In this document: positions 914 through 27,439 of the stretch, in pieces
How the letters are laid out: every line of letters starts with the position of its first letter
Position numbering within the stretch: position 1 is the stretch's first letter
Source: an uncultured Methylococcaceae bacterium
GTDB taxonomy: Bacteria > Pseudomonadota > Gammaproteobacteria > Methylococcales > Methylococcaceae
Direction: 5' to 3'
NCBI GenBank assembly: GCA_903859815.1
Contig: CAIOOA010000034.1
Location: 1 to 33,443 of the forward strand
DNA: 33,443 nt
Notes under the pieces: model-generated
Seen by the model: only the letters and a program-made list of their open reading frames with translations
The model's database searches: none
What the model was told of the DNA's origin: nothing
Position numbers and translations under genes: made by a program

Positions 914-1078
914 GGTTTTCATCTTTATTTGCAACAGTCTATATATGATTTGATACAAAAAAGGCACGACATTCAACAGTCAATCCAAAATGCTTTTGTC
1001 CAATAGTTCGATAACAATTTACCGTAAAACAGGTACAAGCTTTATTTCTCGTCGAGTTTCATCGTAGCCGAAAACTCA

Positions 1079-10253: not shown

Positions 10254-11603
10254 CTACTGGATCAAGATGTCCACGCGCCGATTGAGCGCACGGTGTTCCG
10301 GCGTGTCGTTAGGCGCCAAACCTTCTTCATCGGCTTTACCCTTAGACTTTACATTGGCGGCGTTTAGTCCGCCCGAATCCACCAAAATATCCGCCACATG
10401 CTTGGCGCGAGCAACCGACAAATCCCAATTCGATGGAAACCGGACGCTACGGATAGGAACATTGTCGGTGTGACCGGTGACTAGCACCCTGTCTTGCCCG
10501 CTTGCCAACTCAGCGGCAATCCGTTTGATCATGGGACCGAACTCCGGTTTGACTTGATCGCTTCCAGCCGGAAAGGAGTTGCGGATTCGCAAGGTTCTAT
10601 CATCTACAACCTCAACCATGTTTTTGGCAATTTCGTCTTTTAATAACACGGTAAAACGTGCTTTCCTGCCGGGTACGGGAGGTTTGATGACAGGTTGCGG
10701 CAAAGCTTGTGCAGTCTTGATTTTTTCCTTGCCTAAAGCGGCAAGATGGGAGAGTGCTTCGTCGGATGCGCTGCTAATCGAAAACAAAAATGCCAAATAA
10801 GCCAATAGCAGAACCGCACCCGCAACCGCAGCCACAACCCACAGCGGTACAAATTTCATAAGCGCATTGCGCACATCCTTAAGCCCCTGCCAACGCGGCG
10901 ACAGCGCACGTTCAAAATCCCCTCGGACTCGCTGAATGTGCCGGTAAAGTTCCAAGCGATATTTTTCCAGTTCGTTGACACCGCCAGTCCTGGCTTGACT
11001 GAATTTACCTTGGAACCCCAAGCTTAAGGATAAATAGCAAAGTTCGATCAAATTGATATTTTGAGCAGGGCTGCGCAGGATGTGGTCAATGATTTGAAAC
11101 ACCTTTTCACCACCCCAAGCTTCTTTGTGGAATAGTATCAGCAAACTTTGTTGCCCCCAGATGCTCTGTGCGCCCCATGGGGTGTTAAGTATGGATTCAT
11201 CCAGCAAGGAACACATGACATAGCTTGCCATGCGAGTATGCTCCTGCGTTACCCCTTGCTGTAACAAACGATTTTCAAAACCGCGCATTTCACTCACCAG
11301 TTGGTGCTGCAAACCGGGAATGTCACGGTGGGATGCCGTATTTCGCAGTCTCGAAGCCAATGAAAGCAAAGACAAAGCCGCTGCGGTCGCCGGATTGCCC
11401 GAGACCATTGGTCCAAGCCCCGCTGGTAGATTGACATCCTGAGGGGGCAACGGAGGGGGTGCAGACACTCTTGGTGTGTTGTAAGCTGGGGCATTGGTTG
11501 GATCGTCAGCAGGACTGGGTCGCGCACGACCCCCCGGCGATGGCCTGCGGATCATAGTCCTGTCGTCATCCCCAAACGGGGTAAATGGATCGTCTTGGCT
11601 CAC
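10254..11603 (-). CDS. tssL: TssL (DotU) with C-terminal OmpA-like peptidoglycan-binding domain
   Basis: A 449-residue TssL with the GTG start at 11603. Residues 70-250 are the cytoplasmic DotU domain (YVMCSLLDESILNTPWG, LIELCYLSLSLGFQGKF). One membrane span lies at about 252-275. Residues 325-449 are an OmpA-type peptidoglycan-binding domain (TGHTDNVP 377-384, LSVARAKHVADIL, NRRVDI 441-446), which makes this an 'evolved' TssL that can anchor the complex to the cell wall. The N-terminal tail is disordered and contains DDDRTMIRRPSPGGR with Thr16. In A. tumefaciens, PpkA phosphorylates a Thr in the TssL N-terminus and Fha then binds it, and this site looks equivalent. The 26 extra residues possible from an ATG at 11681 lie inside tssK and are unlikely to be used. 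Confidence 0.94.
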   Translation of the reverse strand: MSQDDPFTPFGDDDRTMIRRPSPGGRARPSPADDPTNAPAYNTPRVSAPPPLPPQDVNLPAGLGPMVSGNPATAAALSLLSLASRLRNTASHRDIPGLQHQLVSEMRGFENRLLQQGVTQEHTRMASYVMCSLLDESILNTPWGAQSIWGQQSLLILFHKEAWGGEKVFQIIDHILRSPAQNINLIELCYLSLSLGFQGKFSQARTGGVNELEKYRLELYRHIQRVRGDFERALSPRWQGLKDVRNALMKFVPLWVVAAVAGAVLLLAYLAFLFSISSASDEALSHLAALGKEKIKTAQALPQPVIKPPVPGRKARFTVLLKDEIAKNMVEVVDDRTLRIRNSFPAGSDQVKPEFGPMIKRIAAELASGQDRVLVTGHTDNVPIRSVRFPSNWDLSVARAKHVADILVDSGGLNAANVKSKGKADEEGLAPNDTPEHRALNRRVDILIQ

Positions 11604-11607
11604 TGGT

Positions 11608-12945
11608 TTATCCTTTCTTGATTGCCCAAAATTCAAGTTCGAGGTCGGGGAAGCTGCCTCCGATATGAAGCGCAAACCCACCCGAGTTAGACATTTTCTT
11701 CCACAGTTCGCTCTGTTTGTTCAACTCGAAATAGGAGAAGCCCGCATGATAAGGCAATTGCCTTGGTGCTACCGGCAGCGAATGTATGGAAATGCCCGGC
11801 AATGCCGCACGGACTAATTGTTGAATTTCCTCGACTGGCCCAATTTTAACCTGAGGCGGGAAATGAGAACGCAATAATTCGGGTGAAACACTTGCTTTGA
11901 CTGCAAGCACAAATATAGCGCTATCCAGCAGGTTGACATCAGGCCGCCTAGCCGCAAACACTCCGGGCCTAGGTTGCGTCAATGGAATTTGAATCGCATT
12001 TTGCTCCAATATCATGCCTAACAATTGCCGCAATTCATCCATGAGCGGTTCGAAGCAGGCTTGCAAATCATCGTGATTATAAGGTGGAAAATTGGCCGGC
12101 CGCTTGCTTGGCTTGTAGAATGTCGCTAGTTCCCCGGCAATTTGCAATCCTAATCTGAAAAACTCTTCCGGGTGTAATGCAGCGTTTACACCTAAATGTT
12201 CCAGCATGGGCTGATATCGATTGATTGCTTGAAGCAGCAAAAAGTCGGCAATTTCCGATGCTCCGCCTCGTGCCGATTCGACCACTCTCCCAGCCAAAGC
12301 CTCCCCTCGTGTATGCAACAAACCATGCAATTCGCGTAGAAAACCGTTTAACACTGTGGATGCCGAGCATTGCAAGATGGCGGGTATGAACTTCTCATCC
12401 AGCAACACGGTCTTGTCGGCTCGCAATTCCACAATTTTCGCCACGCCTAGGCAAACATACCCTGAACGTTCCTGACGTTCGAGCATGAGTCGGCTGCGTA
12501 ATCCACCAATTTGGACTGGATAGCGTCCGTCCGCGCCGCTATTGTGGTCGCGCACCTCCCGTTCACGCATGCGGAAACGAGCCAAGCTATCGGCAAATGA
12601 TTCGCTGTCGATTTCGGAAGAGTCTGGTCTCCGTTGCGGCAGAACCAGATAGACAAGGCTATTTTGCACACCTTCCGGGACTTCTAAAGATAGAGGGATA
12701 TCATCTTGATCGGGCAAGTCGAATGGAGTGCCATCAGGAAATATGCCACGGCATTCCAACAGGGCTAAGCGCCCGATGGCCAATTGCCCATGATCCAGTT
12801 TTAGCGATCTAAATCCCCAGTCGAAGCCCCGCAAGCCTTTGCACCGGCCGTTTACCAAATTCTCAAGAAAACGGTCGTGCTGCTGGAAATGCTGTGGCCT
12901 GAGAAACATACCCTCGGACCATACTACTCTGCTGTATTCGGACAT
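11608..12945 (-). CDS. tssK: TssK (ImpJ/VasE), T6SS baseplate connector
   Basis: A 445-residue TssK of normal length. TssK is a trimeric baseplate protein that links the baseplate to the TssL/TssM membrane complex. The N-terminus is highly diagnostic: VVWSEGMFLRPQHFQQHDRF. Later landmarks are LLLQAINRYQPML, HPEEFFRLGLQIAGELATF and the C-terminal PYHAGFSYFELNKQSELW. There is a GGGGAG ribosome site a few bases before the ATG. The gap to tagH upstream is only 40 bp, too small for the tssJ lipoprotein gene that usually sits here. It is followed 4 bases later by tssL. Confidence 0.95.
   Translation of the reverse strand: MSEYSRVVWSEGMFLRPQHFQQHDRFLENLVNGRCKGLRGFDWGFRSLKLDHGQLAIGRLALLECRGIFPDGTPFDLPDQDDIPLSLEVPEGVQNSLVYLVLPQRRPDSSEIDSESFADSLARFRMREREVRDHNSGADGRYPVQIGGLRSRLMLERQERSGYVCLGVAKIVELRADKTVLLDEKFIPAILQCSASTVLNGFLRELHGLLHTRGEALAGRVVESARGGASEIADFLLLQAINRYQPMLEHLGVNAALHPEEFFRLGLQIAGELATFYKPSKRPANFPPYNHDDLQACFEPLMDELRQLLGMILEQNAIQIPLTQPRPGVFAARRPDVNLLDSAIFVLAVKASVSPELLRSHFPPQVKIGPVEEIQQLVRAALPGISIHSLPVAPRQLPYHAGFSYFELNKQSELWKKMSNSGGFALHIGGSFPDLELEFWAIKKG
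11611..11615 (-). promoter_or_regulatory. ribosome binding site that fixes the GTG start of tssL
   Basis: The minus strand reads AAGGA, seven bases, then GTG at 11603. It overlaps the tssK stop codon at 11608-11610. This supports VSQDDPFTPF as the TssL N-terminus rather than the longer frame inside tssK. Confidence 0.7.
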
Positions 12946-12985
12946 AAACTCCCCAGCTTTTATGAATGGGTTAACCTGTTTGGCG

Positions 12986-14713
12986 TTAGTCTCGCAACAT
13001 CCTCATTTGTTCTTCATAGGCTTTGGCGAATGCGTCGCCAAATAAATTTTCCATGGCTTCGACCACCAATCCCGGATATGCCTTGCTGTAGGCATCCCAG
13101 CACTTAGCCTTCTTCTGGAAGACTATGCCTTCATCAAACCGCTTCTCAAAGCCTAAGGGTTCAAACCGTTTGAGTGTTTCCCCTAAAGCAGCTTGGATTC
13201 CAGCACGCATCGCCATTTGATGCTTCATGATATCGGTAAATCCTTCCTTGACTGCCACAGTTGCATCAATATAACTTGGATGTTTGCGCATTATCATGAT
13301 TTTCATGGCATCTTCTGCCAATGGCAGGATCTTCAAAGGATTGTTTTTTTCTCTGTTGATAACTGTGCGGTCTGTGCGGATTTCACTTTTTTCCTTAGTG
13401 CGAGCCCTTAAAATCATCATCATGCCCTCTACCATTTCCCGATAGACCTCGCCTAGCGCTCTCATGACATTCGCCTGTTCATCCAAACTCAACTTAGGTA
13501 ATTCAGTCAGCCCAGAGCCATTTAAAAAACATTGGAACAAATCCACAGTCACTGAATCCTCTGCGGGTTGCGTGACCGGAGTTGACGCTGGTTCTTGAAC
13601 GATAGAAGCCTTGGCGTTGGCAGATGCAGGCGTCACAGCGGTCACTCTCGAAGGTGGAATTTGACGTCCAGGCCTTGGAATGTCAATCACCGTCTGATCT
13701 GAAGGCTCGGAATGCGGGGGGGGTGCCACATCTTTCACTTCGACCTCAAACTCAGTCGGAAATCCGGCAGGCTGGGGTGCAGAGTCATTGCCAATAAGAG
13801 AAGTCTGATCAGTTTGTTTATTACCCCCAAATAATGGATTTGCACTTCCAGAGTCATCGCCTAAATCAAACGAAAAAGGTGTTGATTCTAGGGCATCGCG
13901 ACTTCCAGCGGACTCGACTGGCGTCGGTTTGAAGGATTGAATATCAGGGAAAACGTCTTCCTGAGTTGCGGATGGCAGATTGGAAATCGTAGGGTTTCCA
14001 ATCATAGGATTAGAGCCAGTGTCTTGCTTGACGGGGTCTAAACCCAAATCACCAAACCAATCATCAGGAAAATCCAAGCCATCCGATTTGACAACCGGGG
14101 CAGGAGAGGAAACAAAACCATCCTTTAATATTGCGTCGAACGAAAAGTCGTCTGAAATGGATTGAACATTTGGCGGAGTAAAATTTTCTTGAAAAGGCGG
14201 CACATCAGGTTGGCTGAAAAAATCACTCGTGGTATCAGGCTGAAGTGGCGCAACATCTTGTTGGAAAGCAGGCAATGGTTCTCTGTCGTTGAACAAAGGC
14301 TGGATGTCGAAATCGAATGCATTCGGTGCTGAATGATCAATAAACGGTTGCTGATCTATGTTAGGAAAAATTTCCGGTGAAGCCTGGGGAATGGATTCTA
14401 TCTGAACTCGCACTTCATATTCCCCGATTTTCAGAAGATCACCATCCGCCAATATCACTGAGTTGCCTTTCTCCAATAGGCGGCCTTCATTGCATAGCAA
14501 AGTGCCACCTGTGCTGACATCGCCATACACATAAGCTCCATTTTCATAGCGTATGTCGCCATGATGGCGGGAAATAATTTTTTCATCATCAGGGAGAGCT
14601 AAGTGATTGTCAAAAGAGCGTCCCACCGAACCACCATTTTCATTAAAGCGGGCAATCAGCGGGTTGATAGGGGGTGAGCCCCGGTAACTGATGACCTCAA
14701 GGACAAGTGCCAT
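12986..14713 (-). CDS. tagH: TagH/Fha, T6SS FHA-domain protein
   Basis: A 575-residue protein. Residues 1-105 form an FHA domain that binds phosphothreonine; the conserved GRS (31-33) and SRHH (49-52) and the NGAYVYGD strand are present. The middle (about 110-385) is a long acidic, Pro/Ser-rich disordered region with repeated FD/DF motifs. It contains DQTVIDIPRPGR with Thr341, a likely kinase target like the phosphothreonine in P. aeruginosa Fha1. Residues 388-575 are the helical C-terminal domain of T6SS-associated FHA proteins (DLFQCFLNGSGL, AMRAGIQAALGETLKRFEP, YEEQMRMLRD). It begins the secretion gene run after a 187-bp gap from the kinase upstream. A GGGA ribosome site precedes the ATG. 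Confidence 0.93.
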   Translation of the reverse strand: MALVLEVISYRGSPPINPLIARFNENGGSVGRSFDNHLALPDDEKIISRHHGDIRYENGAYVYGDVSTGGTLLCNEGRLLEKGNSVILADGDLLKIGEYEVRVQIESIPQASPEIFPNIDQQPFIDHSAPNAFDFDIQPLFNDREPLPAFQQDVAPLQPDTTSDFFSQPDVPPFQENFTPPNVQSISDDFSFDAILKDGFVSSPAPVVKSDGLDFPDDWFGDLGLDPVKQDTGSNPMIGNPTISNLPSATQEDVFPDIQSFKPTPVESAGSRDALESTPFSFDLGDDSGSANPLFGGNKQTDQTSLIGNDSAPQPAGFPTEFEVEVKDVAPPPHSEPSDQTVIDIPRPGRQIPPSRVTAVTPASANAKASIVQEPASTPVTQPAEDSVTVDLFQCFLNGSGLTELPKLSLDEQANVMRALGEVYREMVEGMMMILRARTKEKSEIRTDRTVINREKNNPLKILPLAEDAMKIMIMRKHPSYIDATVAVKEGFTDIMKHQMAMRAGIQAALGETLKRFEPLGFEKRFDEGIVFQKKAKCWDAYSKAYPGLVVEAMENLFGDAFAKAYEEQMRMLRD

Positions 14714-14900
14714 GGTTTTTCCCGTTTGAAAAGTTGGACATGCTTGTTGCTATTCAACCATTTGAACCGGCATCATTTCAAGTAAAAACTCCAAATCAGG
14801 TTAGAGATCGGGCAACTTTCTCGCATTTTGAAATGAAACTTCATTGAAAAAGGCATAATACAGAGGGTCAAAAGCTACAAGTTAGCATAAGTTGCTCTCA

Positions 14901-16865
14901 TCATGGACATGGCCCCAGTTTTGGGCATGTAAATATTTGTGACCCGACTGCCTTAGTTTCAGAATCACCAAGCCGTTCTTGTAAAAGTCCAAGGACTTCC
15001 CAAATTCTCAATTCAATCAGACCGTCTTTCATTCGTTTTTTGTCATTACTATATGTCTGATAAAGATTGTTGCTCTCACTTACAATGAAAGCTAGAAGCC
15101 AAGATTTCCCATAAGGGGGACCGGCTATAATAGGAGGTTTTCCGTTTGGCAAATTCAATAAGCCGGGTCCAACACGGTTATTTTTAGCGTATTGACTTGG
15201 ATATATCAATGTTGCTTTGCCGTTGGGTTCAAAGATGAAAACATGCAAATAACCAGTGACTGGTAAGGTGAGTTTGAATTTTATCAAGTCTTTTTCACGG
15301 TATATCCCATCTTGGGAAAGCGACAAAGGAAATCCTTTAATGGGGGGGATAAATTGGTCTAACAATTTCTCCAGATCATTGGAGTATGCTTTTGGGTCAG
15401 CATCACCGCTTTTTAGCTGGGGTAACAGTTCAACAAGCAACTGTTCAGCCGATTTTAATGGAGGGGAAGGAATGGGCGTAGGTTCGGATTTGATTTCAAC
15501 CTGAGATGGGCTTGCAGATTGAGGGGTGTTAGTAGCAATAGGTATATTCTCATTATTAGGTATCGGTTGAGTTAATGATGGACTAATATCCTTCGATCTG
15601 ATGGTTTCAGAGGAGTTGAAATAATAAACAATAACACCCACTATGGAGGAAAGAACAATGCCATATAATAAAATTTGCTTGAAAGGATTAGTGCGCCCAG
15701 TATCAATTCGAACATTTGAATCCATCGATTCAATTGACTCAATTTTATCATTTACTTGAGGGGCAGATTCCCTATTAATCGAATAATTTTCTCGGGATGT
15801 CAAGGATGCCGAACCAACTGATTGAGATGTTGCATTTAACCTTGTGCGCCCGATGTCACCAGTCCCCAGCGCAATGGCGAACTCCCTAACCGATTGTTGT
15901 CTTTCTTCTTTTTTCAAATTAAGAGCCTGCATGATTGAAGACTCCAGTTCAGGGGCGACATCAGTCACAATGTTAGAAGGAGGTATCAATTCCTGGCCTG
16001 ACAAACGTGCAAAAGCTCCGGGAGGATTCAGTCCAGTCAGTAAAGCATAAAATGTAGCGCCGAGAGAATAAATATCGGCCCTCACATCAGTTCCAGTGCC
16101 TGCAACCTGTTCAGGCGAACTGAAGCTTTCGCTCACTGCATTGGCAGAAGTACGGGTATGTTCAGTGGATATTTCCTTCGCAATTCCGAAATCAATAAGC
16201 ATAATTCGATCATCTTCATTTAACAAGATATTATCTGGTTTTAGATCACGATGAATTACAGGTGGGTTTTGACTATGCAAATAAATCAATACTTCACAGA
16301 GTTGAATCATCCAAGGTATTAATTTATCTAAAGGAATACGTTGATTAGGAGATATTTTACGCTCATTACCCAAAGTACGGCTACCACCAAATTTTAAAAC
16401 AAGGTATTGCATGCCATTGGAAACTACATGATCAATTATATCAGGTATGGATGGGTGATCCAAGCGACTAAGCAATGAACTTTCATATTGATCAAATAAT
16501 AACTCAGGGACTTCCTTCAAGGCACGGCGTTTACCTTCAAGCCTTAAATCGTCGACAAGATAGGTGGCTCCGAAACCACCTTTTCCAAGTACTTGTTTTA
16601 TTTTATATCTATTAGAGAACACAACACCGACGGGAAGAAGCCAGCCAAAAATACCACGTATGAAATCATTGGGACCATAGTCTAAATGGGCGAGTTCGAG
16701 CTTACAGCTACTACAGCGATATTCTCGATCTATTAGCTGATCCAAGGTATTTGAAGTACCGCACATTGGGCAGATATGGGTTTCACTTTCATCTTGTTTT
16801 GATCGAGAGACAAAAACAGTTTTATCATCATTATCAGAATTTTGAAATTTCGTACTCATACTCAT
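14901..16865 (-). CDS. PpkA-like Ser/Thr kinase with zinc ribbon, membrane anchor and DUF4384 domain
   Basis: A 654-residue protein. The N-terminus holds DDKTVFV (Thr16), a possible phosphothreonine docking site. Then comes a zinc ribbon with CPMC (32-35) and CSSC (51-54). The kinase domain spans about 85-335 and looks active: glycine loop GKGGFG 94-99, Lys117, HRDLKPDN 205-212, DFG 225-227 and SSPEQ at 249-253. One membrane span at about 397-415 puts residues 420-654 in the periplasm. That part ends in a DUF4384-like region (about 518-605: LSQDGIYREKDLIKFKLTL, GYLHVFIFEPNGKATLIYP). It lies directly upstream of tagH, so it is the best candidate for the T6SS-activating kinase (PpkA/TagE role). 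The gene is more A+T-rich than the tss genes. Confidence 0.9.
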   Translation of the reverse strand: MSMSTKFQNSDNDDKTVFVSRSKQDESETHICPMCGTSNTLDQLIDREYRCSSCKLELAHLDYGPNDFIRGIFGWLLPVGVVFSNRYKIKQVLGKGGFGATYLVDDLRLEGKRRALKEVPELLFDQYESSLLSRLDHPSIPDIIDHVVSNGMQYLVLKFGGSRTLGNERKISPNQRIPLDKLIPWMIQLCEVLIYLHSQNPPVIHRDLKPDNILLNEDDRIMLIDFGIAKEISTEHTRTSANAVSESFSSPEQVAGTGTDVRADIYSLGATFYALLTGLNPPGAFARLSGQELIPPSNIVTDVAPELESSIMQALNLKKEERQQSVREFAIALGTGDIGRTRLNATSQSVGSASLTSRENYSINRESAPQVNDKIESIESMDSNVRIDTGRTNPFKQILLYGIVLSSIVGVIVYYFNSSETIRSKDISPSLTQPIPNNENIPIATNTPQSASPSQVEIKSEPTPIPSPPLKSAEQLLVELLPQLKSGDADPKAYSNDLEKLLDQFIPPIKGFPLSLSQDGIYREKDLIKFKLTLPVTGYLHVFIFEPNGKATLIYPSQYAKNNRVGPGLLNLPNGKPPIIAGPPYGKSWLLAFIVSESNNLYQTYSNDKKRMKDGLIELRIWEVLGLLQERLGDSETKAVGSQIFTCPKLGPCP

Positions 16866-16915
16866 GATCCCAGATAATAAATCATTAGAAATTGTATTGG
16901 ATGTGCTTGTTTAAT

Positions 16916-19030
16916 TTAGTCTTCTATTGAGTTGACATTCAAATCAAATACAATTATATCACCGCTTCGATAAACGATATTATTTTGAATATATTGATTT
17001 AAGTGAGTTATCTCATTTATTCTTGTTAGATACCATCTAGATTTTGACAATTTACCAAAATTTATTAGCTGATCGAGACTCTCTAAATTTTTTAATGGTA
17101 AGGCTATCGAAGAATTTTGAGCATAAATTGCTCCTGCATCGTTTTGCATATTCTGATAGGAGTCTTTCCTAGACAAAAAAGCCTGTCGTTCGGTAAGTGC
17201 TACAACTATTGCGAGAGGATCTTCATCGGATGAGAAGACTCGTTCTCCTGGCAATGAGTGAATTCTGATGTATCGTGCAGCATTAAAAATGCCTTTTGAA
17301 ATAGGTGTATTCGCTAAATTTAGACCCCAAGGCAAATTGGATTGTTGAATATTATTAGATAGCTTCCAGATAATAATTATACTAAAAATGGTTGTAATAA
17401 TTATAAAATAGTTAGACTGAATATACTTACAAGGTATGCTTATATATATATTGCAAAGATCTAGTATCCAAACAGTCAGCATGGATAGACTAACCGAATA
17501 AACCAACAAAAATGGTCTATGTAAATATTCGGTTTTTCCAAAATAGTCAGGGGAAGGCATTACATTTATCATTATAAAATAAGACACTATTAGAATAAAG
17601 GGTACGTAATTAATGCGCCACCCACTATTAAATCGGGTAGATAATCCCGCAACTATAAACATTAATGGCAATATAACACCTAAACTTGAATATAATAATA
17701 ACAAATATCCGATAATAATAATTGTAATTTGATTGCTGTTTTCAGTCAATCGCTTATAAGTTTCAAAGTATTCTGGGGGTGCATGGGAATGTACTATACT
17801 GAAGAGTTCAGAAGTTCTTACTTTTCCGGTGATAAAGTGAGGGGCGAATGGTATGCCTTCAAGGATATAGATTAGAATGAATCCAAGTACACTACATACA
17901 AATAAAATGACAACAGAATGTGAAGCTTTGGTAGGTCTCCATGTCAATAAACCCAGCATAACGAACATGATGATTGATAGAATCGCTAGATGCACACGAA
18001 AAGCTGTAGTGATCAACATAAGTACGCCAATCAAATACCATGGTACAGGTTTGAATCTTCTACATTCAATTACATACAGTCCTAAGGCGATGAAAATTAT
18101 TGCTAAAGCGTAGCCTGAACTTGGGGATATTTGTAATAACCAATGAAATCCGAAAAAGCCGTTTCTCACACCATACATTGAACCATCAGGCAAGGTAAAT
18201 ACAGCCAACATAGAGGCATAACCAGCAAACCTTCCAGCAAGGGTACATCCAAAACCATAAACACCATACCCAAATAAAATAATTCCAACAGGTAACCAGA
18301 AGAAAGTTGCACTGGCCAACGATGATTGACCGCTCACAAATGAAAAAATAGCCGGTAGGGCGTAGCTTGCACGATGGTAGAGGGGCTGTGCGTAGCCAGA
18401 TAAATAGAGTGATTGATGCCCAAACGATGAATAATCTCTAAGATAGGTGATCTCGGAAGCATGAAGGAAAAAGTCAACCCAAGCATGAAACAGACCAGAA
18501 TCATATGCATATCTTTCCGAAACAATTGTTTCATGCACCCAAAGTGTGGTAAAAACCGAGATCATCAACAATACTGACAAGTCAATAATGAGTAATCTGC
18601 CAGTCGAATTACAATCAATATAGTTAACTCTCTCTTTATGTCCTTTTTGTAAATAAAAATGTAATATGGCGATTACAAAAATATCAATTATTATAGCTTG
18701 TTGTCCAGATGTATAAGTGACTACGGTAATAACCAAATGTAACAAACTTAAAGCTGAAAAACCTACAATGATTCGGAAAGCTGAATTAAAACCATTGACT
18801 GGCCGCAATTTTACCATTGCTGAAATATCAGTCCCTAAAATAATTGAGGTTATTGATATTGCACAAATAATGAAAACCATTGGCACTGTTACTTTACCTG
18901 CTCCTATAACAATTGGAATCAATAAAGCAACTGATAGGCCGCAGCCCAACAAGAATGTTCCACAATATTCTTGTCTCATATCCATTGTGGGAACATAAGA
19001 TTTAATCCAAGAAAATGAGATTGAGGCCAT
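16916..19030 (-). CDS. large polytopic membrane protein, GT-C-like, unassigned
   Basis: About 704 residues with many predicted membrane spans, a hydrophobic first two thirds and a soluble C-terminal part with RYIRIHSLPGERVFSSDEDP. An early extracytoplasmic region reads DSGLFHAWVDFFLHASE. This acidic/His pattern is seen in GT-C glycosyltransferases that use lipid-linked sugars, but I do not recognise a named family. The frame is open to 19105, overlapping the aminotransferase. I chose the ATG at 19030, which leaves a 17-bp gap; neither start has a clear ribosome site, and ATGs at 18985 and 18979 are alternatives. It is markedly A+T-rich. Likely role, by context: membrane step in synthesis or transfer of a surface sugar. 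Confidence 0.65.
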   Translation of the reverse strand: MASISFSWIKSYVPTMDMRQEYCGTFLLGCGLSVALLIPIVIGAGKVTVPMVFIICAISITSIILGTDISAMVKLRPVNGFNSAFRIIVGFSALSLLHLVITVVTYTSGQQAIIIDIFVIAILHFYLQKGHKERVNYIDCNSTGRLLIIDLSVLLMISVFTTLWVHETIVSERYAYDSGLFHAWVDFFLHASEITYLRDYSSFGHQSLYLSGYAQPLYHRASYALPAIFSFVSGQSSLASATFFWLPVGIILFGYGVYGFGCTLAGRFAGYASMLAVFTLPDGSMYGVRNGFFGFHWLLQISPSSGYALAIIFIALGLYVIECRRFKPVPWYLIGVLMLITTAFRVHLAILSIIMFVMLGLLTWRPTKASHSVVILFVCSVLGFILIYILEGIPFAPHFITGKVRTSELFSIVHSHAPPEYFETYKRLTENSNQITIIIIGYLLLLYSSLGVILPLMFIVAGLSTRFNSGWRINYVPFILIVSYFIMINVMPSPDYFGKTEYLHRPFLLVYSVSLSMLTVWILDLCNIYISIPCKYIQSNYFIIITTIFSIIIIWKLSNNIQQSNLPWGLNLANTPISKGIFNAARYIRIHSLPGERVFSSDEDPLAIVVALTERQAFLSRKDSYQNMQNDAGAIYAQNSSIALPLKNLESLDQLINFGKLSKSRWYLTRINEITHLNQYIQNNIVYRSGDIIVFDLNVNSIED

Positions 19031-19047
19031 ATTGATGTAGTGAAATA

Positions 19048-20196
19048 TTACATTTTCTTGAAAAAAAACGTTTGTATAACATCTACGACAATCTCTACCT
19101 GACACGGTTCAAGTGTGGGCCAGAGAGGCAATCGTAATAGTCGATTACTGACATCTTCAGTAATAGGTAATTTGTCGAATGCTTTTCCATATCGTAGGCC
19201 ACCTGGCGAGTTATGTAATGGAACGTAATGAAAAACAGCATTAATATTATTTTGTGCAAGCCATTGAATTAGATAAGTTCTTATTTCAATGCTTGGTACA
19301 AGTATGTAATACATATGAGCGTTATGTTGTATGCCATTGGGTACTGTAGGGCGAGTAATAAAACCGGATTCTTCGAGAATTGCTAGTTTTTGATGATAAA
19401 TATTCCAAATTTTAATCCGTCTTTGGGTGATACTTTCAGCTTCTTCCATTTGTGCCCACAAAAATGCAGATACTAGCTCACCCGGAAGAAAAGATGATCC
19501 AATGTCACACCATCTATATTTATCAACCTGTCCTCTATGAAATTGACTACGATTCGTCCCCTTTTCTCGAATAATTTCAGCTCGATCAATATAACTAGCA
19601 TCATTGACAAGCAATGCTCCACCCTCTCCGCAAATGATATTTTTAGTTTCATGGAATGAAAGCGTCCCAAAGTTCCCAATAGAACCTAGTGCTTGACCTT
19701 GATAAGATGCCATAATACCCTGAGCAGCATCTTCTATCACCAATAAATTGTACTTTCTAGCAGTTTCCATAATACTGTTCATTTCGCAACCTATACCAGC
19801 ATAATGGACGACTATTATTGCACGCGTTTTTTCTGTAATGGCTGCTTCGATTTTTGTTTCATCTATATTCAATGTGTCCTTTCGTATATCTACAAATACA
19901 GGGATTGCCCCACGGAGAACAAATGCATTTGCTGTTGATACAAAAGTAAAGGATGGCATGATGACTTCATCGCCATGTCTTGAGTTAGCAAGAATGGCTG
20001 CCATTTCAAGCGCAGCGGTACAAGAATGAGTCAGTAAAGCCTTCTTTGAACCTGTTTTCGCCTCCAACCACCGATGACAGTTCTTAGTGAATGGACCATC
20101 CCCAGCTAAAATCCCATTCAAATGAGCTTCTGCTATGTAATCAAGTTCCTTACCTGTCATATAAGGTCGGTTAAATGGGATTAAATCCTTGTTCAA
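19048..20196 (-). CDS. wecE: WecE/RffA-type dTDP-4-amino-4,6-dideoxygalactose transaminase
   Basis: A 382-residue PLP aminotransferase of the DegT/DnrJ/EryC1 superfamily, closest in appearance to WecE (RffA). That enzyme adds an amino group from glutamate to dTDP-4-keto-6-deoxyglucose, giving dTDP-Fuc4N. Signs are the start IPFNRPYMTGKELDYIAEA, FVSTANAFVLRGAIPVFVDI, the PLP-contacting IEDAAQG (154-160) and FHETKNI with the Schiff-base Lys185, followed by CGEGGAL. Length matches the E. coli enzyme (about 376). The start is TTG with AGAGG 7 bases upstream. It is the only sugar-nucleotide enzyme in the cassette, so the dTDP-sugar precursor must come from genes elsewhere. Confidence 0.9.
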   Translation of the reverse strand: MNKDLIPFNRPYMTGKELDYIAEAHLNGILAGDGPFTKNCHRWLEAKTGSKKALLTHSCTAALEMAAILANSRHGDEVIMPSFTFVSTANAFVLRGAIPVFVDIRKDTLNIDETKIEAAITEKTRAIIVVHYAGIGCEMNSIMETARKYNLLVIEDAAQGIMASYQGQALGSIGNFGTLSFHETKNIICGEGGALLVNDASYIDRAEIIREKGTNRSQFHRGQVDKYRWCDIGSSFLPGELVSAFLWAQMEEAESITQRRIKIWNIYHQKLAILEESGFITRPTVPNGIQHNAHMYYILVPSIEIRTYLIQWLAQNNINAVFHYVPLHNSPGGLRYGKAFDKLPITEDVSNRLLRLPLWPTLEPCQVEIVVDVIQTFFFKKM

Positions 20197-20286
20197 TTCA
20201 AACCTCTAAATCATGATATATAGTTAACATTCTTAGTCAAAACTTTTCTAAGTTTAATAAAATATTGTGCAAGAGTCAAAAAGAGC

Positions 20287-21525
20287 TTAATTTTGTACAA
20301 GATTAACTGTTAACGCGTAATAAGGGCTCAATAACATCCAAATCACTCCAAAAAAGAATTGAAATCCGCCAATTATAATAGGAGTATAAATAAACTTATT
20401 AGCTGATTTAGCAAAACTAGTTCCAATTTCAGGTAAGTAAGCTAGATATGCTCTTATACTTACAAATAGAAGTAAAAAGTTGGAAATTTGTGCAGACCAG
20501 CCAAAGTTTCCAGCAGGCAAATCTGCAACTTTATCAATCAAGAAATAAGTATAGATTAATGATATTAAAAACATACAAAAACTTAATTGAAAATCAATTC
20601 TAATGGTTAATTTCGACCTCATAATTATAAGGACGGAAATAGGAAATGCTAGCGAGGCCAATAACTTAAGAGGTAATGTCCAAAGTTTGGAAGTCATTTT
20701 GAAAAAATACAAAATTCCGAAGTGTATAGAGTTATTGTCTACAACCCCGAAAAAATAATAATATTGCCATAACAAAATCGAACATGCTGGAATTAAAACT
20801 CCTATTAAAATTACGTCCCAAGCAGGATATATCTTTGTTGCGAAACAAAATCTAATAGATAAAAATAAAAGCAAAGCAGGAATCAGTGCAATAATATAAT
20901 TCGGTTTTGTAATTATACTTAAAGCAGTCATTAAAGCCAACAAATAGACCTTGTTGTTTGTTTTGTTAGCATTTTTATTATTTTTCAACAAGCTACATAG
21001 AGATATGAAATGAAAAAGAGCAACTGGTTTTAGCAGTAAGATTGTCGGATTGTGATAAACGTTTGTTGCTATGTAACCGAAATAGAGATTATTGTCAAAA
21101 GGGTAAAGAAAAAAAACAGGATGCGAAATTAATAAAAAAATGGTACACCATATTAGATGATTATTTTTGATACTAATATTATTGTCTTTGATGCCATTAT
21201 AAGCTACGATGAAAGATAAAAATACACTAATAAATGCTACAGCATATGCAGCATACATGAAAGGAATATTAAAAAAATAATTAATCCCAATAAGTAAAAA
21301 TGGGAATAAAAAATGGGGCTGGGTGCGTTCTCCAGCGAGCATTTTCTCCACAAGGTTAACATGCCCAACAAAATCAGAACTGTTCAAGTATACATGCATT
21401 ATTGCCGTAAACGTATAACATGTTGCAATAAAAAACGCGGATAATATTAAAGCAAATCGTTTTCTACTCATGCTAAATCTAATATTGTAGAGGGATAAAA
21501 GTGCAATAATGGTTTGGTTGTTCAC
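20287..21525 (-). CDS. polytopic membrane protein, GT-C-like, unassigned
   Basis: A 412-residue, very hydrophobic protein with roughly ten membrane spans. After the first span an outward-facing loop reads YLNSSDFVGHVNLVEKMLAGE. The SDFVGH pattern resembles the acidic/His catalytic loop of GT-C glycosyltransferases or uncharacterised multi-pass glycan enzymes. The start used is GTG; ATG at 21471 (MSRKRFALIL) is equally possible, as neither has a good ribosome site. It is A+T-rich like its neighbours. No specific family can be named. Confidence 0.6.
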   Translation of the reverse strand: MNNQTIIALLSLYNIRFSMSRKRFALILSAFFIATCYTFTAIMHVYLNSSDFVGHVNLVEKMLAGERTQPHFLFPFLLIGINYFFNIPFMYAAYAVAFISVFLSFIVAYNGIKDNNISIKNNHLIWCTIFLLISHPVFFLYPFDNNLYFGYIATNVYHNPTILLLKPVALFHFISLCSLLKNNKNANKTNNKVYLLALMTALSIITKPNYIIALIPALLLFLSIRFCFATKIYPAWDVILIGVLIPACSILLWQYYYFFGVVDNNSIHFGILYFFKMTSKLWTLPLKLLASLAFPISVLIIMRSKLTIRIDFQLSFCMFLISLIYTYFLIDKVADLPAGNFGWSAQISNFLLLFVSIRAYLAYLPEIGTSFAKSANKFIYTPIIIGGFQFFFGVIWMLLSPYYALTVNLVQN

Positions 21526-21593
21526 AATAAGAGTGGCATGACAAACTTTCTTTGACTTATTTTAATGGTATAACCATCTGTAATCAAGAAATT

Positions 21594-23213
21594 CTACATT
21601 GGTGAATTAACATGGCAGCGATAGGTGGATAAATTTATACTGCCATATTTTTGTGCACTTATCTCAGTTAATTCACCATGTAAGTGTTCTCTACAATAAA
21701 TGCCCAAGCGCTTTAGGCTGTATTTATTGGCAATAATAGATATGCCACCTTCAGTAGTAATGAGATCAAGCATTCCCTGCCCCTTATTTTGTTCTTGAAA
21801 TGAAACGGAAAAAGGAGCTAATGTAAATGCGCCTAAGCTATAAAAAATATATGAGCGAATAGAAGGGGGTAAGTTTATAACAGGGTAGACAGCTTCAAAA
21901 GGAAAGCTTGCGCCCCAGTTTATAACCACCTTATTTTCTGGAAAACCTTCCAATCCTTTTCTGACTTGCTCCGCTGACAATTGATTTTGTACAAATTCAG
22001 ATGAAATAAGCTTTGTATTTATTATGGCTGACACAATCAAAGTAAAGCAAATAAAAAACTTTCTTGTAAATGAAACAGCACAGCCATCAAAGAACGGAGC
22101 AATGACAAGCAAACTAAATAATGGAATATAGATTCTCAATATTCCTGGTCGACCAAGTATACCAAATAAAATTACAGAAGAAACACATATAAACCAGCTT
22201 ACAATTACATTAAAACTAGGTTTTAAAATGGATAAAAATATACCACATATCATTAAAGGCGCTAGTTTAGGATCAAATAAGGATTTAATTGCAATCCATG
22301 TATTAGAAATTATATCTTTCTGACTAGATAAAGGGCCTATCTCACTCAGCATTGCTGATAACGCTACTGGATTGGCAATGTGTGAATCAACAAAAAACCA
22401 ACTACTTATCAGTTCTATGTCATTAATACTATAACCATATCGATTTAAAATATCAGTACGCTGTTTAATGCTTTCTCCTGCATTGAAATCAGTAAATGGA
22501 GCCCGCGCATAATTCAGTTGATTGAAAGCATTCCATTCATCAATTTGATATGCGTTATAATCAACATACGATGCCAGAACTATCATTGAAACAAGCACTA
22601 ATGTGGCTATTTTAAATGATTTGCGCGGGATAAGAAGTCGCCATGAAATTAATGGAAGGGAAATAATAAAAACTAATAGGGCTTCATGCTTTCGTATCAA
22701 AAAGCTGAATAATGCTAGTATACAACCAACCGCAAGGTAACTTAAATTATCATTTCGTACATAAAGTTTCCAACAAATGACGGCTGCAACCATAAGTAAA
22801 CCCGAATTAATGGTAAATTGTGGAAAAATAACTGGGCGTGTAAACACTAATAATATAACTGAAATGCTAGCAATTAAACCAGCATCCATTTGATAAAGAC
22901 CATATATCACAATACCAATTATGACAATAAGTACTAAGTAGGTGGCAATGGAATATCCAAGGATACCGAATACTGGCTGAATTGAAGAAACGATATACCC
23001 CCATAGGACATTTGAAAAAATTAGATTAGGAGATTTTATGGCTGCGATTCCATAACCATGGGCAACCATAGACATTCCTATATCATCATTGGTTTCCCAC
23101 ATTGGAGAAAAAAATAAACATAATGAAAATATAAAGATAAATGATAATATAAAAGATAAATATAAAAATCCATATTTATCCAAGTAAAAATGTCGCTCTT
23201 CAATATTACCCAC
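21594..23213 (-). CDS. polytopic membrane protein, GT-C-like, unassigned
   Basis: A 539-residue protein with a membrane N-terminus, about ten to twelve spans, and a soluble C-terminal tail of about 140 residues. The first extracytoplasmic loop reads FSPMWETNDDIGMSM. The paired Asp43-Asp44 right after the first span is typical in position for GT-C glycosyltransferases that use polyprenyl-phosphate sugars. A second loop has FPQFTINSGLLM. Its ATG overlaps the end of the small transporter gene upstream by 8 bases, so the two are likely co-translated. Specific family and acceptor are unknown. Confidence 0.62.
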   Translation of the reverse strand: MGNIEERHFYLDKYGFLYLSFILSFIFIFSLCLFFSPMWETNDDIGMSMVAHGYGIAAIKSPNLIFSNVLWGYIVSSIQPVFGILGYSIATYLVLIVIIGIVIYGLYQMDAGLIASISVILLVFTRPVIFPQFTINSGLLMVAAVICWKLYVRNDNLSYLAVGCILALFSFLIRKHEALLVFIISLPLISWRLLIPRKSFKIATLVLVSMIVLASYVDYNAYQIDEWNAFNQLNYARAPFTDFNAGESIKQRTDILNRYGYSINDIELISSWFFVDSHIANPVALSAMLSEIGPLSSQKDIISNTWIAIKSLFDPKLAPLMICGIFLSILKPSFNVIVSWFICVSSVILFGILGRPGILRIYIPLFSLLVIAPFFDGCAVSFTRKFFICFTLIVSAIINTKLISSEFVQNQLSAEQVRKGLEGFPENKVVINWGASFPFEAVYPVINLPPSIRSYIFYSLGAFTLAPFSVSFQEQNKGQGMLDLITTEGGISIIANKYSLKRLGIYCREHLHGELTEISAQKYGSINLSTYRCHVNSPM

Positions 23214-23580
23214 GAGCTGCCACCATCGTTCCTAAAACAATTAATGTTACACCCACTGTTTTTTGTAATGTGAATGGTTCGTGTAGTAAATATCCACTCA
23301 ACAATAACACTATTACAAAATTTAAACTCATAAATGGGTAAGCGTAACTCAAATCAAATTTAGTCATGGCAGCCATCCATGCAAGCGATGCTAGAAAGGC
23401 TGCTGCAAAACCTGAGAATATTGCTGGATCAAATAACAGTGAAATTAGAAATTTTAATTTCGCAAAAGCATCGACTGGCAATGGTCCAAATTTCGATATT
23501 CTAAACTTTAGAATTAGTTGGCCATAGACTGTAAAAACAATTGTCGCGACGATATAGAGATAATCCAAAAGACGAATCAT
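23206..23580 (-). CDS. small four-span transporter, SMR/EamA, ArnE/ArnF-like
   Basis: A 124-residue protein with four membrane helices. It resembles a single EamA/SMR unit: YIVATIVFTVYGQLILKFRI at the start, then FDLSYAYPFMSLNFVIVLLL and a final GVTLIVLGTMVAARG. The size and the AYPFMSLN region fit ArnE/ArnF-type and related small membrane proteins proposed to flip undecaprenyl-phosphate-linked sugars. It overlaps the methyltransferase by 4 bases (ATGA) and the 539-residue protein by 8, so the three form a tight unit. By context it may move a lipid-linked sugar across the inner membrane for the GT-C-like protein encoded next. Confidence 0.72.
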   Translation of the reverse strand: MIRLLDYLYIVATIVFTVYGQLILKFRISKFGPLPVDAFAKLKFLISLLFDPAIFSGFAAAFLASLAWMAAMTKFDLSYAYPFMSLNFVIVLLLSGYLLHEPFTLQKTVGVTLIVLGTMVAARG

Positions 23581-24200
23581 TGATGTTTTCTGACTATGAT
23601 TGTGAATTCATATAGGCCATAGTCGTGCAAAAGGGCAACATCCCTTGAATAATTCCGTTTGCAAAAGTCAAATATCACACAAGGATTTGCGTAATAAAGA
23701 TAATCGTGCATTTTGTCAGTGTCAGAGTATATTGTAAGGCAATTAAATGAAAAACCCTTTCTACTTCTTGAGTTCAATAAATTAAGAGTTGTTTCGAGAT
23801 ATTCGTTCCATTTGTCATTGCTAAAACTTAAACGAACATTAAATATTCCGCTTGCAACCGAATAGTCTGCCGTTTCAGCTAGTTCGGCTGACAAATTAAA
23901 GTGAGCATTAGAATATTTTGTATTGCGGATATTAGCAGCTTTAATCATGTCATCAGAAATATCACAACCATAATATTTGAAATCCTCATAACGCATTAGC
24001 AGATAATCAAAAAGGGCACCATAGCCGCATCCTAAGTCATTAATGCTGAATGTTTCATCCGAATTAATTACCTTAGTCAATTGTTCAAAACGTAAATATT
24101 GGCTCTCGTGACTATTCCAGTCAACACCATGATGAGTTAAACCATGCTCAACTATTTTCTTGGAATAATAGTCTGCAATTTCTCTCAATAGTATGTTCAT
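23577..24200 (-). CDS. SAM-dependent class I methyltransferase
   Basis: A 207-residue soluble protein with the class I SAM-binding core. Motif I is INDLGCGYGALFDYL near residue 55. It is followed by the acidic strand end YYGCDISDDMIKAA near 77 and a later SVASGIFNVRLSF. The N-terminal IADYYSKKIVEHGLTHHGVDWNS is common in methyltransferases within surface-sugar clusters. The acceptor cannot be told; methylation of a sugar or an amino-sugar substituent fits the setting. The ATG is weakly preceded by GGA, and the end overlaps the small transporter start (ATGA). Confidence 0.82.
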   Translation of the reverse strand: MNILLREIADYYSKKIVEHGLTHHGVDWNSHESQYLRFEQLTKVINSDETFSINDLGCGYGALFDYLLMRYEDFKYYGCDISDDMIKAANIRNTKYSNAHFNLSAELAETADYSVASGIFNVRLSFSNDKWNEYLETTLNLLNSRSRKGFSFNCLTIYSDTDKMHDYLYYANPCVIFDFCKRNYSRDVALLHDYGLYEFTIIVRKHQ

Positions 24201-24217
24201 TCCAGAATTCTATATAA

Positions 24218-24919
24218 TTAATTGGTAAACTTTAAATAGTGCTTTGCATTCTTTCCGCAGTTGAACAATAAATCTAATATGGTAACGCCATGCTCAAAAT
24301 CACCCCATAATTGTGGATATTCTGGGTAACCAGAATAATCAAACCAACTGATTTTAAGTCCATGCTTGGAAAATATTGATTCATCAATATATGCTTTAGC
24401 GGCTGGACCAGAGATATACTCAGTTCCACCTACTTGTAAGCATAAATCTGCAAGACGTTCTGTCTTTCCTTCAGTTAAAAGATAATCCCATGAATTTGAA
24501 ATCTTCGTCGCAATTTCCAATTGATTGCAAACCCATTCAATGAGAGCGCGGTTTAATTGTGACAAGTGAGTGTATTCACAATTTAAAAAAATAGGCTCAA
24601 GTTGTTTAGACACCCTATCAAAATGACTAGCTCGGCGGTAATTCTGACATAATGTTTTCCAATGAATTAATGCCCAGTCATTCCCATCCAATTCTGTCTC
24701 ACGAATGGTTTGTAGATATTTTCCCTTGGCTTTGACAGGGACTGTCAGCCACTGCAAACCTTGAGGAGTTTTAATTTTATTGCGATTTCTCCAGTCACGT
24801 CGCGTGAATTGCATATCATCGTAAAGTATAAATTCATCGACGGCAGCTATCATATCAAAATACCCTTTCCATGGAATATAATTAGATTGAAGTATAGCCA
24901 CTTTTTTTTCTTTAGACAT
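24218..24919 (-). CDS. WbqC family protein
   Basis: A 233-residue WbqC-like protein. The family start is clear: KVAILQSNYIPWKGYFDMIA, then DEFILYDDMQFTRRDWRNRN and LQWLTVPVK; later GGTEYISGPAAKAYID and SWFDYSGYPEYPQLWGDFE. WbqC genes occur in O-antigen and other glycan clusters and are often next to amino-sugar aminotransferases. The biochemical role is not settled and may involve acylation of amino sugars. It is the first gene of the A+T-rich cassette, 37 bp after the upstream kinase stop, so it may be read from the kinase promoter. No good ribosome site is seen before the ATG. Confidence 0.88.
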   Translation of the reverse strand: MSKEKKVAILQSNYIPWKGYFDMIAAVDEFILYDDMQFTRRDWRNRNKIKTPQGLQWLTVPVKAKGKYLQTIRETELDGNDWALIHWKTLCQNYRRASHFDRVSKQLEPIFLNCEYTHLSQLNRALIEWVCNQLEIATKISNSWDYLLTEGKTERLADLCLQVGGTEYISGPAAKAYIDESIFSKHGLKISWFDYSGYPEYPQLWGDFEHGVTILDLLFNCGKNAKHYLKFTN

Positions 24920-24956
24920 TATAATGCTACAATTGATTTTTTATATATTTCAGGTT

Positions 24957-26465
24957 TCATCCTTGCAACTTGCTTTTCAATTTCAATAGTCCTTCATGTC
25001 TAGGATCGGCTTCCAATCCTTCCATGACTTTTTTCATGCTTTGCGCCCGTTCACCCTTTTCATAAAATTCCCAAGCGGCTTGTTCCAAGGTGTCTGCAAT
25101 TTTATTAATGCCGGTTATGGCCTTTTCATTATAGGGGTCGATTTTCAGAACCTCACGATAGGCCCATAATGCATTGCTCCCCGTCGGTGCCGTTAGATAA
25201 CCAACATCAAAATGTATCTCGGCCAGTTCCAGTAGATCCTTGATTTTAAATTGTTGGTCTGGTGAAAGTTCATGAATGATCGGTGGCTGGGCGGGAGGAG
25301 GGGAAATTAAATTCAGGTAAATATTAACGCCAGTAATGGCAGCTATCAAAACGCCAGATGCCATTGAAAAATAGAATAGATTGCCGTGTGGTTGCAGTAG
25401 TGCTTGGAACTCTGCCACGCTTTTAATGCGATCCTCCTGTTTGAATGCCAGACCTCGCTGCAAGGCTTTCCATTGGTTTCGTTTTAAACCAGTAATCGGT
25501 TTTGGGTGTAGAATCAATTCCTGCGCCTTTTCTGCCGACAACTTGCGAAATGGGTGCTGGCCAGACAATAACTCATAGCACACACAAGCCAGTGCATAAA
25601 TGTCATCACGCGGGTCTGGGGCTTGCTCCCGAATTTGTTCAAGACTAGCATAGGCGGGGGTCATTGCGCCAAGGTCACGGGCATTGAATACCGTGGCATC
25701 CGCTCCCTTGTCAGGTCGCCCAATGGCCGTGGCAATGCCAAAATCAAGCACTTTTGCTTCATTCTGCTCTGTGATAAAGACATTGCCGGGTTTGAAGTCG
25801 GAATGCACTATATTTTTCTTGTGTGCATAGGCCAAGGCAGCGCACATCCCTTCTATGATTGTCCAAGCCTGCTTGAAACCCATCCCGCCCGGAGGCATTT
25901 CACGGATCAGGTTGCTTAACGGTCGTCCTTGCAAGTATTCCATTGTCATGAATACTTGCACTCCGTCACGGTCAAAATCATAAACGGTGATGATATTTGG
26001 GTGTGACAGGGTTTGCGCTCGCTTGGTTTCCCTTTGCAATGCAATGAGTGAAACTGGGTTCTTTCGAAAGTCTATGTTCAGTACCTTCAGGGCGACAAAG
26101 GCTTCCCGGTCATTGGCTTCTACTTTGCGCAAATCCAAAGCCTTGAATACCGTACCCATACCGCCCCTGCCCAATTCCTCTTTGAGTACAAAGCGTTCTT
26201 TAATCACCACGCCAACGCTAAGTTCTTGATCGGGCCGAAGTGAGGAGGATGCGGTTAAGTTTCCCCCTGCCAAAGTTTCTAACAGAGTTTTTTGAATTCC
26301 TAGTGACGGTGTGCTTGGTTTATTGGCATCTTGACTGAGCGCAGGCTGAATAATCGTAGGCTTGTCCTCATTGCTGAGAACAATCGTGGCAAGATCATCC
26401 ATGTTAGATTTTGGAACAATTCGTGTGCGTTCTTCGTCTTCATTGCTGGAATCTTGCGAAGCCAT
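24957..26465 (-). CDS. membrane Ser/Thr kinase with HSD catalytic loop and C-terminal helical repeat region
   Basis: A 502-residue protein. The disordered N-terminus carries three acidic/Thr/hydrophobic motifs: ERTRIV (Thr14), LATIVL (Thr27) and PTIIQP (Thr37). The kinase domain (about 92-355) has GRGGMG 99-104, Lys127, HSDFKPGN 221-228 and DFG 241-243. The usual Arg of the HRD motif is Ser, so this is a non-RD kinase, but the catalytic Asp and Asn are kept. One span at about 363-386 is followed by a periplasmic TPR-like region (400-502: ALWAYREVLKIDPYNEKA, GLEADPRHEGLLKLK). It is encoded after the hydrolase and caspase genes and before the sugar cassette. A GGAG lies 10 bases upstream of the ATG. 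A second T6SS-linked kinase is likely but not proven. Confidence 0.88.
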   Translation of the reverse strand: MASQDSSNEDEERTRIVPKSNMDDLATIVLSNEDKPTIIQPALSQDANKPSTPSLGIQKTLLETLAGGNLTASSSLRPDQELSVGVVIKERFVLKEELGRGGMGTVFKALDLRKVEANDREAFVALKVLNIDFRKNPVSLIALQRETKRAQTLSHPNIITVYDFDRDGVQVFMTMEYLQGRPLSNLIREMPPGGMGFKQAWTIIEGMCAALAYAHKKNIVHSDFKPGNVFITEQNEAKVLDFGIATAIGRPDKGADATVFNARDLGAMTPAYASLEQIREQAPDPRDDIYALACVCYELLSGQHPFRKLSAEKAQELILHPKPITGLKRNQWKALQRGLAFKQEDRIKSVAEFQALLQPHGNLFYFSMASGVLIAAITGVNIYLNLISPPPAQPPIIHELSPDQQFKIKDLLELAEIHFDVGYLTAPTGSNALWAYREVLKIDPYNEKAITGINKIADTLEQAAWEFYEKGERAQSMKKVMEGLEADPRHEGLLKLKSKLQG

Positions 26466-27419: not shown

Positions 27420-27439
27420 CCCACGATTTCAACGCATGA

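Follow-up and report, generated by a model that had tools for sequence, protein, structure and literature searches.

Which proteins does the phosphothreonine-binding protein of a type VI secretion system (T6SS) read, and do they carry one common code? The question is raised by contig CAIOOA010000034.1 of an uncultured Methylococcaceae bacterium (33,443 nucleotides, called the window throughout), which as a whole represents one T6SS cluster with its genes on the minus strand. The cluster holds two Hanks-type Ser/Thr kinases, a PP2C phosphatase and the FHA protein TagH/Fha. A preliminary description of the window had proposed that TssL, TagH and both kinases share a phosphothreonine motif read by the FHA domain of TagH. 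Comparative data backed a Thr motif common to TssL and the kinases of the T6SS, in a cluster that also encodes a single FHA protein and a single PP2C phosphatase, while the site named in TagH, Thr341, was not conserved. The pattern across bacteria suggests a single switch whose reader is a phosphothreonine-binding protein. We estimate a probability of about 0.6 that this is a threonine-phosphorylation switch of the PpkA-PppA-Fha type with one code, acidic-x-Thr-x-hydrophobic, in several proteins including TssL and the kinase tails. The following features are concerned.

5002..6600, minus strand: TagF-PppA fusion of TagF_N (PF09867, 1.5e-42) and a PP2C phosphatase (PF13672, 4.8e-14), the likely eraser
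10254..11603, minus strand: TssL with DotU (PF09850, 2.4e-63) and OmpA (PF00691, 1.1e-14) domains; likely start a GTG at 11603, the longer open reading frame (ORF) beginning at 11681
11529..11570, minus strand: N-terminal motif of TssL, DDDRTMIRRPSPGG, with the Thr16 codon at 11556-11558
12986..14713, minus strand: TagH/Fha with FHA domain (28-96), disordered linker and T6SS_FHA_C domain (400-568) (PF00498, PF20232, TIGR03354)
14901..16865, minus strand: kinase 1, a Hanks kinase (PF00069, 1e-32) with DUF4384 (PF14326, 4.4e-7)
16818-16820, minus strand: Thr16 codon in the tail motif NDDKTVFV of kinase 1, a motif seen in congeners and family members
24957..26465, minus strand: kinase 2, a Hanks kinase (PF00069, 3.6e-40) with N-tail sites
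26424-26426, 26385-26387 and 26355-26357, minus strand: codons of Thr14, Thr27 and Thr37 in the N-tail of kinase 2

The CxxC pairs of kinase 1 are presumably zinc-ribbon-like, by our own reading of the translation.

Samples and the motif in the window

The motif strings and residue numbers given in the preliminary description for the four proteins were all correct on a position check. As strict pattern we used [DE]xTx[VILMF], with expected counts from shuffles of the same tails. A looser pattern also scores sites adjoining the DotU domain (e.g. in L137, L139 and L142), and strict counts were preferred for this reason. Within the window alone, composition-preserving shuffles gave P values, uncorrected for the number of tests, of 0.07 for the TssL tail, 0.20 for kinase 1, 0.25 for kinase 2 and 0.03 for the TagH linker with the strict pattern, and of 0.013, 0.09, 0.02 and 0.24, respectively, with the looser one. 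As this excess over shuffles is weak, a shared motif could not be decided from one sequence, and relatives were compared.

Three samples were employed. For the order level 251 genomes were drawn, 93 of them with TagH, and 60 loci were fetched. For the phylum 299 genomes were searched, 59 of them with DotU, and 80 of 88 non-window matches were fetched. The named set comprised the best 80 of 405 loci, with genomes partly overlapping those of the other samples. Kinases were collected from 141 sources, namely the window together with the 60 order and 80 phylum loci. We are aware of the fact that divergent kinase, FHA and DotU proteins may be missed, since all three were detected by hidden Markov models grown from the window's own domains.

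A conserved threonine motif in TssL and kinase tails

Of 58 TssL tails at the order level, the window counted, 55 had the strict motif ahead of the DotU domain, against 4.6 expected. With the acid allowed anywhere from -3 to -1 it was found in 57 of 58, the sole miss (L077) having a truncated tail. The check on conservation in orthologs that the preliminary description had proposed thus came out in favor of Thr16 of TssL. Aligned on this Thr, 47 distinct tails revealed a conservation island from -4 to +8 within an otherwise variable tail, where pair identity from +11 onward was 7-20%; Thr, the acid at -2 and the hydrophobic residue at +2 were fixed by pattern selection and the remaining columns were free. 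The named set gave 70 of 73 tails with the motif (4.8 expected), including all 19 Pseudomonas tails scored. Its misses were L217, which reads RTVIRPNPGG and has its acid at -4, L252, whose tail is masked, and L260, whose tail was not recovered. Judged against shuffles, the TssL Thr16 motif is genuine and strongly non-random across relatives.

The N-tails of 65 T6SS-locus kinase ORFs held 61 strict sites versus 10.6 expected, with at least one site in 37 kinases and at least two in 13. Kinase 2 homologs hold arrays of sites, such as DDATQI, DETVL and NDATVL in L055 or the four sites of L073; the Thr residues of kinase 2 are thereby conserved as a class of site, but not position by position. In the named set, 28 N-tail sites were counted in 30 kinases (3.8 expected); 11 of these kinases had at least one, and the number per kinase reached five (L234, L275). 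Eighteen named kinases, all from Pseudomonas, have N-tails of at most 20 residues. Eight sites directly followed the kinase domain in this group (0.9 expected), one post-domain site in each of 8 of the 18 proteins, several of which are cut by the locus end. The zinc-ribbon kinase family carried the strict motif in 11 of 20 fetched tails, and in 13 of 23 once the window, L035 and L047 were added. Near matches in L192, L200 and L202 raise this to 16 of 23, and the remaining seven (L047, L194, L195, L197, L198, L201, L203) are without the motif, so that conservation of Thr16 of kinase 1 was confirmed for part of its family. By these counts the kinase tail motif is genuine, and it often occurs as arrays. 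For comparison, the first 80 residues of 1374 further ORFs showed a mild excess (195 sites versus 141 expected, at least one in 184 ORFs), and in the window's own genome none of five other kinases had a motif site outside the kinase domain.

The enrichment is specific for Thr. In the TssL and kinase tails the ratio of observed to expected [DE]xTx[VILMF] was 9.6, 5.9 and 7.0, compared to 0.6, 1.1 and 0.5 for [DE]xSx[VILMF], and A, G, N, Q, Y or V in place of Thr gave ratios of 0-1.4. With Thr enriched and Ser not, the pattern points to a phosphothreonine reader. FHA domains are described as highly specific for phosphothreonine (PMC3953482), and one report claims binding of phosphoserine too (PMC4238996).

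The alternative that survives best is that the shared motif reflects nothing but kinase substrate preference, TagH reading TssL at most and the tail sites being autoregulatory; we consider it unlikely. Hanks kinases often autophosphorylate their tails, and a preference of the kinase for Thr could contribute to the Thr enrichment or be its source instead of the reader. The reported phosphoserine binding, moreover, would weaken the argument from Thr specificity. The motif also occurs in zinc-ribbon kinases without an FHA match on their contig, such as those of L188, L189 and L191. Against this stands the missing Ser enrichment (0.5-1.1), which appears stricter than kinase preference alone should give. 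Furthermore, in 4 of 11 genomes with zinc-ribbon kinases in which FHA genes were located (G081, G116, G121, G158) a zinc-ribbon kinase lies at most 2 kb from an FHA gene, and all four kinases carry the motif; they lie off the contig of the T6SS TagH or more than 100 kb from it. FHA adjacency nevertheless fails to separate carriers from non-carriers, because of L188, L189 and L191. Finally, Fha-PpkA binding in Acidovorax citrulli is stronger with kinase activity (PMC12607579).

That the motif is exclusive to T6SS was considered and rejected, as zinc-ribbon kinases encoded away from the T6SS cluster have it as well. The window's own genome also contains a second FHA-kinase-PP2C locus (L180:4986-10643) with two FHA proteins, two PP2C proteins and one kinase. 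In one of its FHA proteins DIHATVIHH comes after an N-terminus that resembles a zinc ribbon; this string is similar to the motif class without a strict match.

Association of the TssL motif with kinase genes

Among phylum loci with FHA and a kinase within 10 kb, 29 of 39 had the TssL motif (3.7 expected). The corresponding values were 7 of 19 (1.2 expected) for loci with FHA and no kinase within 10 kb, and 3 of 22 (0.9 expected) for loci without FHA. Widening the kinase labels from 10 kb to 30 kb by coordinates turned 6 motif-positive and 5 motif-negative loci kinase-positive. The phylum loci then divided into 36 with motif and kinase, 3 with motif only, 16 with kinase only and 25 with neither (p = 4e-7). 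The association survived clustering of 138 TssL at 45-70% identity (p 0.0001-0.003). Within the order alone the motif was unrelated to a kinase within 10 kb, the motif being nearly universal there and some tails trimmed too late. Kinase presence switches about 6 times on the TssL tree, and an independent-pairs test had no power. The association, though real, is clumped on the phylogeny.

This coupling might be due solely to deep co-inheritance of T6SS subtypes. The small number of kinase changes favors such an explanation, as does the published finding that kinase, phosphatase and Fha genes cluster subgroup by subgroup (PMC2660368), but it leaves the Thr-specific conservation over shuffles and the arrays in fast-evolving tails unexplained, and the association persisted after clustering. 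In addition, three TssL loci have the motif but lack a linked kinase. Each of these genomes encodes an unlinked kinase with tail sites, three in G372 and in G381 and a single one in G417; in G381 the strings are alike, EDERTVF in the kinase and EEERTVF in TssL. The unlinked kinase may serve the T6SS in these genomes, and we regard mere co-inheritance as improbable. Least probable of all is that the tail element DDxTxxRPxPGG is kept for a structural or docking role, with Thr inside a linear motif for another T6SS component: the conservation does reach +8 and takes in PxPGG, and 73 of 94 tails with the motif have a PG in the next 12 residues, but the kinase tails have the same core without PxPGG, and TssL is a demonstrated PpkA target in Agrobacterium tumefaciens (PMC3953482) and a reported one in Vibrio alginolyticus (PMC5995506, PMC10482370).

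The putative reader TagH: Thr450 as the conserved site in place of Thr341

Three sites of TagH were analyzed.

14570..14620, minus strand: FHA phosphothreonine-pocket residues Arg32 and Ser48, invariant in 44/44 proteins (alignment A3)
13691..13693, minus strand: Thr341, the site of the preliminary description, aligned Thr in 3/44 Fha proteins
13364..13366, minus strand: Thr450 (DRTVINREKNNPLK), a C-terminal-domain site missed by that description

We take the pocket residues as the equivalents of Arg30 and Ser46 of A. tumefaciens Fha, which are required there for binding of phosphorylated TssL (PMC3953482). In the predicted model (pTM, the predicted template modelling score, 0.41), blockwise confidence (predicted local distance difference test, pLDDT) exceeded 90 in residues 1-110 and stayed under 56 in residues 111-390. 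The C-terminal domain from 391 reached 84-95, except for a dip to 66-72 at the loop 446-458, which follows a long helix and contains Thr450, and a second one to 68-72 at 521-540.

Thr341 was rejected as the TagH phosphosite. Apart from the alignment, Fha linkers as a whole were not enriched in the motif (27 sites versus 35.6 expected in 114 proteins), and the nearest relatives retain Thr341 without the acid (L205, L206) or have lost it (L207). The adjoining VID[IL]P[KR]P (341-348) is retained in all three of these congeners, though the preceding Thr is lost in L207; by this comparison it is a separate short linker motif.

Thr450 is proposed in its place, the column showing Thr in 98 of 116 Fha C-domain rows and in 44 of 44 in alignment A3. 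It probably corresponds to Thr362, the phosphosite of Pseudomonas aeruginosa Fha1 (PMC5995506), since the Thr in this column of the Pseudomonas-like Fha L110 falls at 359 or 361 of a 501-residue ORF, depending on the start. Kinase-negative phylum loci showed R/K (L123, L125, L128, L130, L135) or F (L127, L129) in this position. A strict link to the kinase does not hold, as kinase-negative L100, L116, L118, L119 and one L144 Fha keep Thr, while kinase-positive L140 has Ser and L143 Ala, and gaps occur in L137, L139, L142, L168, L169 and L172. L137, L139 and L142 resemble A. tumefaciens, for which the authors found no Fha Thr site (PMC3953482).

Eight loci (L116, L118, L119, L123, L125, L128, L130, L135) have FHA and no kinase within 10 kb or 30 kb. 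Their TssL tails show no Thr motif and an LRG or IRG element near DotU; the context in their Fha C-domains is P[I]EDNPL, with R/K replacing Thr in 5 of 8.

The proposed switch

In the switch that we propose, the Hanks kinases would autophosphorylate Thr residues in their own flexible N-terminal tails and would phosphorylate Thr16 of TssL and Thr450 of TagH. The FHA domain of TagH, with its intact Arg32/Ser48 pocket, would bind the phosphothreonine peptides, docking first on the kinase tail. TagH would then join the TssL-TssM membrane complex via phosphorylated TssL and perhaps other TagH copies through phosphorylated Thr450, and the phosphates would be removed again by the PP2C half of TagF-PppA. 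We infer phosphorylation of these sites, the kinase responsible and binding by TagH in this organism from what was obtained directly here, namely the motifs, their conservation and Thr specificity, the conservation of the pocket and the predicted loop position of Thr450.

The pathway itself is already known, including phosphorylation of A. tumefaciens TssL at Thr14 with Fha binding, Fha Thr362 and the subgroup-wise gene clustering (PMC2660368). In A. tumefaciens the target of PpkA in TssL is Thr14, and Fha recognizes the phosphopeptide DLPpTVVEI, a single peptide being bound only at 0.5-2 mM (PMC3953482); arrays and several partners would supply avidity to such weak binding. The window agrees with this system in a TssL N-tail Thr at nearly the same position (16 versus 14), a PpkA-type kinase, an FHA reader and a TagF-PppA fusion (PMC5995506), and differs in having DDRT[MVI]I instead of DLPTVVEI and an Fha that keeps Thr450. 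The Thr14 was reported as not conserved in distant TssL, the alignment legend naming P. aeruginosa (PMC3953482). With the PpkA-PppA-Fha1 system of that species the window shares the kinase, the PP2C phosphatase and an Fha with a conserved C-domain Thr, but it has two kinases, and one of these combines a zinc ribbon with DUF4384. The accessible parts of the literature describe no TssL phosphosite for Pseudomonas, yet its TssL tails carry the motif.

For the TssW-PpkA-Fha axis of A. citrulli, Fha-PpkA binding was weaker with kinase-dead PpkA, and Fha foci required kinase activity, but not Fha T640 (PMC12607579). Both results are as predicted by docking on an autophosphorylated kinase; a docking site is not named in the accessible part of that report. 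An FHA protein also binds its own kinase in the mycobacterial PknQ-MupFHA pair, there via activation-loop residues instead of tail motifs and without a T6SS (PMC4238996). A more tentative extension, which we would not yet favor, is that T6SS kinases in general are FHA scaffolds: their autophosphorylated tails, with one to five sites, would capture Fha weakly and multivalently, and Fha, once phosphorylated there on its C-domain Thr, would be handed to the same motif on TssL. Our literature search, which covered few subscription papers, found neither a common TssL-tail motif beyond Rhizobiaceae nor its recurrence in kinase tails. The strings RTVIRP, KTVLRP, DRTQFMP, DDDKTRI and DDKTVI appeared in the searched literature in unrelated context only, and NNPLKF did not occur among the matches listed.

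Several observations weigh against the proposed switch. The excess in the window itself was weak (P 0.01-0.25), and only Thr14 of kinase 2 meets the strict pattern, Thr27 and Thr37 matching the looser one. No strict N-tail site was present in 28 of the 65 T6SS-locus kinases. The TssL tails of the A. tumefaciens-like loci L137, L139 and L142 have NLPT or SLPT in place of a strict match, and those of L103, L113, L121 and L122, one family (f16) with a kinase 17-26 kb away, are without the motif. Given about 6 kinase changes on the TssL tree, phylogenetic independence of the association with the kinase cannot be proved. Zinc-ribbon kinases elsewhere in genomes carry the motif whether or not an FHA gene is on the contig. 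Moreover, 7 of 20 unlinked kinases, picked by hand, have it as well (13 sites versus 3.8 expected; Ser 2 versus 4.0). Of these sites, 8 versus 0.9 expected fall in 7 unlinked kinases of G372, G381 and G417, which have the TssL motif and no kinase within 30 kb; the remaining 13 kinases had 5 versus 2.7, in 3 of 13 proteins. As the unlinked kinase may serve the T6SS in the former three genomes, the evidence for the motif in non-T6SS kinases rests mainly on the zinc-ribbon family. From the literature, TagF-PppA left TssL phosphorylation unaltered in A. tumefaciens (PMC5995506), and Fha Thr438 was reported as the sole PpkA target in Serratia (PMC6082577).

Gene layout and source organism

Two further genes of the cluster were assigned.

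116-976, minus strand: ImpE
11608-12945, minus strand: TssK

ImpE is followed in gene order by what we take from their translations to be Hcp, TssC, TssB and TssA, ahead of TagF-PppA, and the ORF at 6600-10244 (minus strand) is presumably TssM. Between both kinases (16916-24919) glycan- or lipid-type genes were found (DegT aminotransferase, WbqC, methyltransferase, EamA), together with three large proteins without Pfam match (16916-19105, 20287-21525, 21594-23213). Adjoining kinase 2, at 26520-30157, are a lipase-like protein and a Sel1-coiled-coil-caspase protein. Homologs of the latter (bit score >300) occurred in 18 of 60 order-level loci, mostly alongside a lipase-like gene, and this T6SS-linked caspase module may be worth study. 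A single ORF at 30613-32937 contains two tandem C5-cytosine methylase stretches (PF00145). The best named matches of TagH were metagenome-assembled genomes of uncultured Methylococcaceae and the Candidatus Methylumidiphilus alinenensis group (L205 94%, L208 46%); the host, a lake methanotroph, is by this affinity Candidatus Methylumidiphilus-like.

Implications for T6SS control

Earlier publications regard the phosphorylated target as differing between species: TssL for Agrobacterium and Vibrio, Fha for Pseudomonas and Serratia (PMC3953482, PMC10482370). Our results point to a single short Thr-specific code that T6SS clusters possessing both FHA and kinase genes show in the TssL tail and frequently in the kinase tail as well. 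A shared code would account for how one FHA domain is recruited first by the kinase and next by the membrane complex; it also yields exact residues for mutation in Pseudomonas and other strains. If the kinases indeed act as FHA scaffolds, TssL- and Fha-phosphorylating systems would be one pathway with several interchangeable sites, not alternatives, and other kinase-FHA pairs of bacteria would use this tail code too.

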